39,425 bases of DNA from Nitrosomonas sp. (lineage in GTDB: Bacteria > Pseudomonadota > Gammaproteobacteria > Burkholderiales > Nitrosomonadaceae): positions 1 to 39,425 of the forward strand of contig JAHBZZ010000025.1 of the NCBI GenBank assembly GCA_019635215.1, in the 5' to 3' direction. Position 1 is the stretch's first letter, and each line of letters begins with the position of its first letter. Made by a program: the position numbers and the translations under genes. The notes below the pieces were generated by a model. The model was not told the origin of the DNA. It searched no databases and worked only from the letters and a program-made list of their open reading frames with translations. Shown in pieces: positions 72 through 39,425 of the stretch.

Positions 72-228
72 CTATATTAACCCGAGCTCGGGATAAGCCC
101 TCAAGCTTTGATCACTTTTTTTCTTTCTGCCGTACAAAGGTCTCATTTTTATGAAATAGGGGTTTGTAAAAGCCGCTACTTAATAGAAATTCCTCATTAT
201 TATTAGGGTATTACGAATGGGTAAAAGA

Positions 229-283
229 TTTTGTGAAGTTTTTGTAATTTTTTTGTGAAGTTTTTGTGAATTTTCTGTATAAT
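229..283 (+). promoter_or_regulatory. Promoter with 22-bp phased direct repeats
   Basis: A perfect -10 hexamer TATAAT sits at 278-283, but no good -35 is found at 16-19 nt spacing. Instead the 17-bp sequence TTTTGTGAAGTTTTTGT occurs at 229-245 and again at 251-267, a 22-bp period (two helical turns), with a further partial TTTTTGTGAA at 261-270. Same-face repeats beside a poor -35 suggest an activator-dependent promoter; this is inference. It drives the small ORF at 346. Confidence 0.55.
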
Positions 284-345
284 AACTACTCAGAATACAA
301 AAAACCTGATTAACATTTTTAACATTCTTTCACTGGAGAAATATA

Positions 346-423
346 ATGGAAAAGCTGCCCGGTACTTATTACGCAATCGTACTCATACTGCTCATGTTCC
401 TGATATTGGAAGCATTCGCATAA
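346..423 (+). CDS. 25-aa single-helix membrane peptide
   Basis: A short ORF (ATG 346, TAA 421) encodes 25 residues: a polar start (MEKLPG), then an almost unbroken hydrophobic run (about residues 8-20) ending in LEAFA. A good Shine-Dalgarno, GGAG at 335-338, lies 7 nt before the ATG; a TATAAT promoter is upstream and a terminator-like hairpin with a T run follows at 469-506. All signals of an independent single-gene unit are therefore present. By size and shape it would be a single-pass inner-membrane peptide, like the small subunits that stabilise respiratory or transport complexes (CydX and KdpF are of this type). It matches none I recognise, so the partner is unknown. The gene is read away from the tRNA. 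Confidence 0.7.
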   Translation: MEKLPGTYYAIVLILLMFLILEAFA

Positions 424-468
424 TCCAAAAAACAAATCAATCAATATTCACTTCTGAATGGTTATAAA

Positions 469-506
469 GAGGCCAGTTCTTTTGTAACATGAACTGTCCT
501 CTTTTT
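469..506 (+). terminator. Rho-independent terminator of the small peptide gene
   Basis: An 11-bp stem with one internal mismatch (arms 469-479 and 491-501, GAGGcCAGTTC / GAACTGtCCTC) is followed directly by TTTTT at 502-506. It lies 46 nt after the stop codon of the 25-aa ORF. Confidence 0.8.
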
Positions 507-519
507 ATCTCATGAATAT

Positions 520-558
520 GAAGTGTAGAACACGATTTTCTATTATGTTCTACACTTC
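520..558. repeat. 13-bp perfect inverted repeat
   Basis: The arms GAAGTGTAGAACA (520-532) and TGTTCTACACTTC (546-558) pair perfectly around a 13-nt AT-rich loop. No T run follows, so a simple terminator is not obvious. It could be a backup hairpin behind the terminator at 469-506 or a protein-binding palindrome. Confidence 0.6.
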
Positions 559-1062
559 TACTGCATTCCAGAATCATGCGCGGTATTTAACCGCAGAATT
601 CGACATCAACTTCTGAAGTTTTATAGCAAAATATCCTGTTTTTGCAGTCAGGCACTGGTTTCAATGTATCATTTGTACCTGAGCGTAAACTTGCTTAACA
701 GTTCATTTGTATGCAGCAGGATAACTTTACGTGCTTGCTGTGTAGTTTGGTATTTTCTCAGTTTTATGAAACATCCCTGCCTACCTAACGGTTTGTTGTA
801 CTGCTACTGAGTATTATTCCACTTGTACAACCAGTACGATGACATATACAAAGCCAACAACAGGCACTGCGAAGATCGCTCCGCCAGTACCGCCGCGTTG
901 TCCGGGAGAAACTTGGCAAGGGCAGTGAAATTTTGTGGCAAAGTCAGTATAAGCCTGATTAGCGAAAAAAGAATTCTGTTTGCCAACGTGTCTTAACAAA
1001 TATCGATTATGAGTTTGAGCAGCCCATTTAAAATAATGGATCAGAAACATACACTGCTTGCC
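559..1062. other. Gene-poor stretch
   Basis: I see no supportable gene here. Two overlapping minus-strand ORFs (804-986 and 814-1050) cover much of it, but neither has a Shine-Dalgarno sequence or a recognisable domain. The 78-codon one has a hydrophobic C-terminus and could be a decayed membrane-protein fragment. Confidence 0.4.
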
Positions 1063-15101: not shown

Positions 15102-15167
15102 GGATTTTCTCCCGATAATAAAAAAATAGGTCATTGTAAAGCATTTAGAACAACTTCAATGACTTCA

Positions 15168-15418
15168 CCCCTCTGTCCTTCTACCTGAGAGATTTACGGG
15201 ATATCCGTGTGCCCCTTCGGTGGCCAAGCAAAAACATGAATTGCCAATATATTTATGAATATTATGGCGGATTGCTAAGCACTCTCCAGATTGCCTGTTT
15301 CAAGCGGTTTTCAGGGGATAACGACAGTTTTCTGACCTTGCCTGAGCGATTCCGGGGGGTTACGCCTTCGGCGGCGCTTGAATTATTGACTGATAACTTA
15401 AAGCGCGCTCTCCTGCTT
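15168..15418 (-). ncRNA. Tandem glycine riboswitch
   Basis: Two consecutive glycine aptamers are readable on the minus strand. The first starts GGAGAGCGCGC near 15413 and contains GCCGCCGAAGGCGTAA and CGCTCAGGCAA. The second starts GGAGAGTGCT near 15292 and contains CCACCGAAGGGGCA, then CTCTCAGGTAGAAGGACAG ending near 15168. These are the conserved elements of the gcvT riboswitch class. About 67 nt separate its end from the gcvT start. In this class glycine binding usually turns the glycine-cleavage operon on. Confidence 0.95.
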
Positions 15419-15440
15419 GAACATGTTCGGCTGAGTGCGA

Positions 15441-38204: not shown

Positions 38205-39425
38205 TGTAGTAATTCAGACCCGATCTGACAGTCACCCGATTTGACGATGTGCCTGTTAGATCAAATGCAGTTATTTAATGTGGTAATTTTATCGTCCCAT
38301 ACCGCCTTTGCGTCAATTAAAGTTTGCATTGGTGTGCGCCCACAGCACATCTTTCCTTGGTGAGTACGCGTGCTGTTGTAATACGCCATCCAGTCATCCA
38401 GATCGTGCTGTAGCTCATCGATTGATTGGTAGATCTTGCGCCGGAATGCCACTTGGTAGAACTCCTGCAAGATGGTTTTGTGGAAACGCTCGCAAATACC
38501 GTTGGTCTGCGGATGATTGGCTTTCGTTTTGGTATGCTCAATGTCATTGAGTGCCAAATAGAGCTGGTAATCGTGATGCTCCGGTTTACCGCAATATTCA
38601 GTACCGCGGTCGGTCAGGATACGGATGACGCCCATGCCCTGCTCAGCGAAGAACGGCAGTACCCGATCATTGAGTAAATCAGCCGCTGTGATCGGCGTTT
38701 TATTGGCATACAACTTCGCTGCTGCCCACTTGGAATAGGTATCGACGAAGGTCTGCTGGTAAATCCGTCCCACGCCTTTGATGGTGCCGACATAAAATGT
38801 GTCTTGACTACCGAGATATCCAGGATGAGCCGTTTCAATCTCGCCATGAGCAACATCATCGTCTTGTTTCTTCTCCAATGCCTGTACCTGCGCCTCGGTT
38901 AACACTCTTCCAGTTTCAGCGACATACTTTTCCAAGGCCGACAAACGTTTTTTGAATGACTCCAGATTCTGGCGCAGCCACACTGAACGAACACCGGACG
39001 GAGAAACGAAAATACCGCGTTTGCGTAGTTCGTTGGATACTCGAACCTGACCAAAAGCCGGTTGCTCCAGGGCAAAAGCTGTAACTGCTGCTTCCGTCGC
39101 TTCTTCAACACGGTTCTTGATGTTGGGCTTGCGCCGATTCGCATCTATCAGCGCCTCAACACCTCCTGCTTCCACTGCTGCCTGATAGCGATAAAAAGTA
39201 TCACGTGAAAAACCCATCACCTTGCAGGCGCGGGATACATTGCCAAGCTCGGCTGCCAGATTAAGCAGACCAATCTTGTGTTTGATGACTTTCTGTTGAA
39301 AACTACTCATGGGATTACTCCTTTGCGCTTGCGCGCTTCGTTGATAAAGTTTCACACCTCTATCAAACCGGGTAATCCCACCTCTTGGCAAGACCCTAAT
39401 GTCAGATCAAGTCTGAACTACTACA
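38205..39425 (-). mobile_element. IS481-family insertion sequence, complete
   Basis: 1221-bp element with terminal inverted repeats of about 25 bp: left TGTAGTAATTCAGAC (38205 on) and, from the right, TGTAGTAGTTCAGAC (39425 inward), then GATCTGACA after two mismatches. It ends exactly on the last base of the window, so the target duplication cannot be tested. One intact transposase fills it. Confidence 0.9.
38261..39310 (-). CDS. IS481-family DDE transposase
   Basis: 349-aa transposase. An N-terminal helix-turn-helix (NVSRACKVMGFSRDTFYRY) is followed by the rve integrase core with catalytic residues in FVDTYSKWA (Asp), RILTDRGTEYCG (Asp) and NHPQTNGICERFH (Glu). I start at ATG 39310 (MSSFQQKVIKHKIGLL), the usual N-terminus; an in-frame start at 39391 adds 27 residues close to the terminal repeat. 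No frameshift or stop, so the element may still be active. Confidence 0.92.
   Translation of the reverse strand: MSSFQQKVIKHKIGLLNLAAELGNVSRACKVMGFSRDTFYRYQAAVEAGGVEALIDANRRKPNIKNRVEEATEAAVTAFALEQPAFGQVRVSNELRKRGIFVSPSGVRSVWLRQNLESFKKRLSALEKYVAETGRVLTEAQVQALEKKQDDDVAHGEIETAHPGYLGSQDTFYVGTIKGVGRIYQQTFVDTYSKWAAAKLYANKTPITAADLLNDRVLPFFAEQGMGVIRILTDRGTEYCGKPEHHDYQLYLALNDIEHTKTKANHPQTNGICERFHKTILQEFYQVAFRRKIYQSIDELQHDLDDWMAYYNSTRTHQGKMCCGRTPMQTLIDAKAVWDDKITTLNNCI

Follow-up and report, generated by a model that had tools for sequence, protein, structure and literature searches.

Several small membrane proteins are known to modulate transporters, among them AcrZ (which works with AcrB), MgtS and MgtR; they are short, have few helices and are made from stress-type promoters. 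Direct repeats of 11 bp lying over the -35 region are typical of regulators of the OmpR/PhoB family, and in the pho box of PhoB such repeats, of the CTGTCAT type, replace the -35 element. To our knowledge, little is known about inorganic-carbon sensing and response in non-photosynthetic autotrophs.

As far as the accessible text of each source goes, the cre/blr-tag TTCACnnnnnnTTCAC of CreB/BlrA has the form TTCAC-N6-TTCAC (PMC3660660), and BldC binds head to tail on varying numbers of 9-bp AATTXXXX(C) direct repeats (PMC5859096). In the accessible part of PMC13144422, hneap_0908 is given as a third member of the DAB1 complex, a small transmembrane protein; that small membrane proteins have accessory functions in carbon pumps is therefore plausible. 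The available portion of a review (PMC10880623) counts SbtA, SulP and DAC among the uptake systems and names no regulator like RR-A, the candidate response regulator discussed below. In the available portion of PMC12628692 the words LysR, CcmR, two-component and response regulator are all absent, and within the accessible text of the open-licence literature we found no description of a regulon of the kind proposed here.

A predicted transcription unit for a putative 25-residue membrane peptide

The window (the whole stretch of Nitrosomonas sp. DNA analyzed, 39,425 nucleotides) carries near its start a short unit whose parts are listed in Table 1. Its promoter array resembles the pho box in having 11-bp direct repeats at the -35 place, and differs from it in its core, which is GTGAA and not TGTCAT. 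The core and the 11-bp spacing are identical to those of the cre/blr-tag in the accessible description of that element, TTCAC-N6-TTCAC being present at 255-270 on the other strand. BldC, from what the available text says of it, is like the proposed regulator in its head-to-tail binding and varying repeat number but is rejected as an explanation, its repeat being 9-bp AATTXXXX(C) and that of the window 11 bp with a GTGAA core. Compared by description, the peptide is similar to hneap_0908 as a small hydrophobic protein that appears tied to an inorganic-carbon pump, and is unlike it in that hneap_0908 is listed, in the accessible part of PMC13144422, as part of a complex. The likeness to AcrZ, MgtS and MgtR is also one of description; what sets the present case apart is a single kind of array, common to several families and to carbon-uptake genes.

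Table 1. Features of the peptide unit (window coordinates)
Feature	Position	Strand	Remark
11-bp direct-repeat array, four units	229..272	+	Occupies the -35 place; read from sequence
Array cores	GTGAA 233-237, GTAAT 244-248, GTGAA 255-259, GTGAA 266-270	+	
-10 element TATAAT	278..283	+	7 nt past the final GTGAA core
Shine-Dalgarno GGAG	335..338	+	ATG (346) 7 nt on
Peptide ORF MEKLPGTYYAIVLILLMFLILEAFA	346..423	+	25 aa, one hydrophobic helix
Hairpin with T-run 502-506	466..504	+	Probably an intrinsic terminator
Duplicated segment with array, gene and hairpin	178..742	+	Second copy on contig C43

The sequence-only reading had taken this stretch for a self-contained unit encoding a single-helix peptide, and every part that it named (Shine-Dalgarno, ORF, TATAAT, repeat and hairpin) is found in the sequence. 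At the sequence level the reading is supported by the relatives of the peptide, by their pN/pS and by the arrays upstream of them. Its pair of 17-bp repeats (TTTTGTGAAGTTTTTGT, 229-245 and 251-267) is likewise present at both places but is better parsed as four 11-bp units, each spanning roughly one turn of the helix; the repeat family adds a further copy at 262, 11 bp on and 77% identical. The pair as such is thus rejected, both members being parts of the 11-bp array.

Transcription is expected to start near 290. The strongest σ70 match in the first 1500 bp of the window (11/12) lies at 319-347, across the start codon, and therefore cannot drive the peptide ORF. Over the same 1500 bp neither promoter-like sites (3 vs 4.6 expected) nor terminator-like sites (1 vs 1.3 expected) are enriched. 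The region of the hairpin folds with -17.1 kcal/mol over 460-515 (z -3.57); a simple terminator scan omits the 466-504 hairpin because its loop of 11 exceeds the limit of 8. The best 19-residue Kyte-Doolittle mean of the peptide is 2.25.

With a threshold of E<=2.5e-4, a profile search of 85 Nitrosomonas genomes located the peptide in 21 of them, at 26 places; weaker matches (E<=1) raise the number of genomes to as many as 37. An additional search of 61 genomes at E<=10 returned 13 places, spread over 9 genomes; one of these places (L008) is false and was rejected as a relative for its lack of a start codon. Conservation of the frame in relatives had been set beforehand as a test of the reading, and the frame is kept; in the copies read, length and Shine-Dalgarno are kept with it, with similarly placed SD-like purine runs. 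A K/R near the start, the helix and an E or D near the end are often retained. Over 11 pairs of relatives and 20 codons, pS is 0.204 and pN 0.057, giving a pooled pN/pS of 0.28 (p 4e-7), a pool that takes in two pairs of second-type, array-less peptides. The short unit closing in a strong hairpin might also suggest a small regulatory RNA in which the ORF is incidental or a leader. We consider this very improbable, since frame, length and Shine-Dalgarno are preserved and synonymous changes are in excess; as judged by eye, distant relatives seem to share little of the untranslated parts. On this evidence, ORF 346-423 is a real gene.

The gene is also duplicated within its own genome. A segment of 574 bp (window 178-742) is found again on contig C43 at 93.6% identity; the two ORFs differ at two positions, both synonymous, so that the peptide is unchanged, and the hairpin keeps its stem with a loop 2 nt longer. 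It is because of this duplication that GTGAANNTTNTGTGAA has two exact matches in the 3.39-Mb genome, each before this peptide. Tandem copies occur in two other genomes, G010 and G026. Such duplicated copies, together with the single helix and the length of 25 aa, would fit a type I toxin, that is, a small hydrophobic protein silenced by an antisense RNA. This explanation appears improbable to us, as no minus-strand promoter-like site is seen over 226-1500 in a consensus scan (a method that cannot exclude one) and the promoter array is of the type that stands at carbon-uptake genes and at genes for other small proteins.

Searches beyond the genus gave partial and weak matches in 4 of 300 genomes of the order (E 0.04-0.1, counted besides the window's own genome), which we take as noise. 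The peptide has no match in Pfam or NCBIfam at E<=0.01, a search to which so short a query (25 aa) gives little power. Plasmids and phages were rejected as carriers after an equally low-power search of their records found no match at E<=1. Homology to the larger array-controlled small proteins was also rejected, hhalign giving a probability of 2% for 19 peptides against 8 of the 62-73 aa proteins.

A second type of peptide, MKLPTAYYVILTILLLLNIFELIA, was noticed at four loci (L009, L029, L031, L033). It is without an array and has in its place an apparent upstream inverted repeat, GAGAACCATA..TGGTTTCTC. In G026 (L195), two peptide copies stand 860 bp apart, each with two consecutive arrays.

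Arrays before small membrane proteins and at carbon-uptake genes

Upstream regions were read for 25 copies of the peptide, of which the four second-type copies were left out. Under a loose rule that scores a unit when 3/5 core letters match, 19 of the remaining 21 array-type copies are preceded by 4-7 units. Both exceptions are the G010 tandem copies: in the first, the units are spaced by 11 and 12 bp, while the second lacks an array of its own. Fuller arrays than that of the window precede the relatives in G002, G026, G078, G079, G085 and G086; in G085 the array of a second copy (C107) lies ~100 bp upstream. A TATAAT 7 nt past the array recurs in L010, L011 and L027; L002 has TACAAT at this distance. 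Of 19 array-type copies, 8 carry, 7-8 nt past the array, a -10 that matches in 5 or more positions. The most frequent spacing is exactly 7 nt, but it is not general: 21 of 43 arrays have a good -10, and in 6 of these 21 it lies at that distance.

Related arrays are found across the genus. The pattern (GTGAAN6)x4 with <=1 mismatch has 105 matches, overlapping ones counted, in 51/85 genomes, and (GTGAAN6)x3 occurs exactly in 42/85; the reversed array pattern, used as a control, has none in all 85. The window array departs from (GTGAAN6)x4 at two positions and thus falls below the strict search line (the strict match of this genome is C1:272579 instead), so its link to the genus-wide arrays rests on the relatives with fuller arrays. 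Among 40 array contexts, picked by the analyst for variety, 30 have a membrane ORF of 40-100 aa <=130 nt past the array, compared with 83 of 2000 random places drawn from those same loci. One further small ORF (L109) was overlooked by the counting rule. Three array-linked small membrane protein queries gave nothing above the Pfam or NCBIfam cut-offs.

Several of these arrays are close to inorganic-carbon transporters. In L083, L089 and L118 a small ORF and then SulP follow, 0.6-0.9 kb from the array. dabB-dabA lies 0.9 kb away in L100 and 0.4 kb away in L116, where the array points at a small protein. The 10 contexts without a small ORF include L094, in which SulP follows directly at 176 nt, and L091 and L113, in which dabB-dabA is ~200 nt away and the array points away from it. 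Other arrays precede an efflux-like operon (L093, L103) or a metal-binding-like protein (L119), and two have no plain target (L097, L098), L098 perhaps holding a broken small gene as judged by eye. The activator dedicated to this peptide that had been proposed earlier is thus not supported, since arrays of this kind occur throughout the genus, both ahead of other small membrane proteins and close to genes for carbon uptake.

One array is longer. At L101 6079-6160 (G000:C1:272579) there are six to seven 11-bp units, GTGAAGAATTx and then GTTAA-type, flanked, as judged by eye, by a TonB-receptor-like gene on one side and an acylphosphatase-like ORF on the other, with no small membrane ORF <=130 nt away.

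RR-A as the candidate regulator

The OmpR-family DNA-binding domain has 4-7 matches in each of seven genomes. The regulator that we call RR-A has, in G108, a receiver and a Trans_reg_C domain, and a kinase adjoins it in 20/20 contexts. In 14 of these a transporter directly follows the kinase (10 SbtA-SbtB, 2 DabA and 2 SulP, with DabB behind one of them; L284 is an SbtA case), the families having been assigned by Pfam from one protein each (Sbt_1, P-II, DabA, Proton_antipo_M, Sulfate_transp). Among 80 RR-A relatives in genome records, a transporter lies <=1.5 kb from the kinase end in 56, which are not independent since many represent one orthologous site, and no transporter was found within 1.5 kb in the other 24. 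An exact TTCAC-N6-TTCAC follows the kinase in 47 of the 56 loci, Nitrosospira multiformis included; two Paraburkholderia RR-A records have neither a transporter (<=1.5 kb) nor this motif. In the genome of the window, RR-A is not beside a transporter.

The 13 promoters read between the RR-A kinase and the transporter show TTCAC-N6-TTCAC followed by RTGTTAA-like letters. This uptake site has the core and spacing of the array on the other strand. As TTCAC-N6-TTCAC-N7-RTGTTAA it has 86 matches in 68/85 genomes, against 2 for the reversed control. A carbon transporter is the next gene in 28 of 30 uptake-site loci (21 SbtA, 4 SulP, 3 DabA/B), for the most part next to the RR-A/kinase pair; many of these loci again represent one orthologous site and are not independent; the two failures are L304, with one mismatch and no transporter, and L315, where the contig ends. 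In this genome an uptake site stands 80 nt from a SulP gene. Relative to the peptide promoter, the core has the opposite orientation at SbtA and dabB and both orientations at SulP. The peptide copies mapped in the window, L195, L196, L198 and L199 do not adjoin transporters as judged by eye.

Presence of RR-A and of these sites tends to go together across the genus. With a line of E<=1e-85, set after the gap to 1e-61 was seen, RR-A is absent in 11/85 genomes, two of which (G004, G064) are only 75-80% complete. The strict 4x array is found in 0/11 genomes without RR-A and 51/74 with it (p 1e-5, kinship ignored), so that 23 of the 74 lack it; the uptake site is found in 2/11 and 66/74, respectively (p 3e-6, kinship ignored). 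PhoR, present in 85/85 genomes, was rejected as an explanation of where arrays occur. Among 44 OmpR-type regulator loci of seven genomes, some places covered twice, the uptake site occurs only at RR-A, in 3 loci from 2 genomes; the RR-A loci of G000, G006 and G061 have none in the stretch read.

Array binding by another direct-repeat regulator, such as an orphan PhoB paralog or an RR-A paralog, with an indirect link to carbon, is in our view unlikely. A tree does place an orphan PhoB-like regulator beside PhoB, but its recognition helix is nearly that of PhoB, and the pstS-like genes of two genomes (L200, L201) are preceded by a TGTCAT-type box. RR-A paralogs of ~41-50% identity occur in many genomes, and in this one such a paralog has a SulP-Usp pair next to it (L193; genes identified by eye). 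G010 has no RR-A ortholog, yet it has RR-A paralogs and carries two genes for the peptide, one uptake-type site and an array of irregular 11/12-bp spacing. Against a paralog stands the restriction of the uptake-type site to RR-A among the 44 regulator loci. A PhoB box as such was rejected on its core and on 20 loci at pstC-type matches, not all of which include a pstS promoter, in which no GTGAA array is found. RR-A differs from CreB/BlrA, as the accessible text describes them, in scoring 159.3 bits against the CreB model (cut-off 273), in having carbon-uptake and small membrane genes as its apparent targets, and in its 3-7 units. PhoB box, CreB regulon, BldC and type I toxin all fit worse than an RR-A regulon.

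At four loci (L152, L159, L160, L161) the orphan PhoB paralog has no adjoining kinase, in genomes that also have phoB-phoR. The receiver of the G061 orphan looks degenerate.

Proposed regulon and other features of the window

The best reading, to which we assign a probability of roughly 0.6 from sequence comparison, is that the peptide gene belongs to a regulon that is controlled by RR-A, is linked to inorganic carbon and comprises many small membrane proteins. The spaced promoter repeat suggests that the peptide is made in response to carbon supply. Phosphorylated OmpR-family RR-A would most likely bind head to tail along the array, covering the -35 region, and would activate rather than repress by recruiting RNA polymerase to the -10 located 7 nt downstream. 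The result would be a short mRNA of about 290-506, ending at the hairpin. The peptide would be translated from the GGAG site, inserted in the inner membrane with its N-terminus inside, and most likely serve a membrane complex important under carbon limitation as a small adaptor or modulator, with SulP, DAB and the respiratory chain as candidates for that complex. More tentatively, the commonest output of such a two-component carbon-linked regulon in Nitrosomonas may be, rather than the transporters, several families of 25-90 aa membrane proteins under the same kind of operator. These proteins might be subunits or brakes, each able to replace another, in the bicarbonate/CO2 pumps and the respiratory chain, and the peptide of 25 aa would then be among the smallest members. 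Ammonia oxidizers are thus provided with a motif, a list of targets and a candidate pair of regulator and kinase, and the operator, which is open to direct testing, ties very small membrane proteins to a carbon-uptake motif.

We also noticed several features elsewhere in the window. Past the terminator, 520-558 holds a perfect 13-bp inverted repeat, GAAGTGTAGAACA..TGTTCTACACTTC, which is the only GTGTAG..CTACAC hairpin in the window; a similar one with changed stem bases is found in the C43 copy and in G002. Tandem CGATCTCT 8-mers, in seven overlapping 24-nt copies, lie at 1054-1125, in the spacer upstream of the ORF that starts at 1382. The contig start (1-30) looks like a partial minus-strand tRNA gene, of which ARAGORN reports none. 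A psRNA2 match at 39312-39425 runs off the window end, and two glycine riboswitch aptamers lie in a row on the minus strand at 15163-15425, upstream of minus-strand ORFs.
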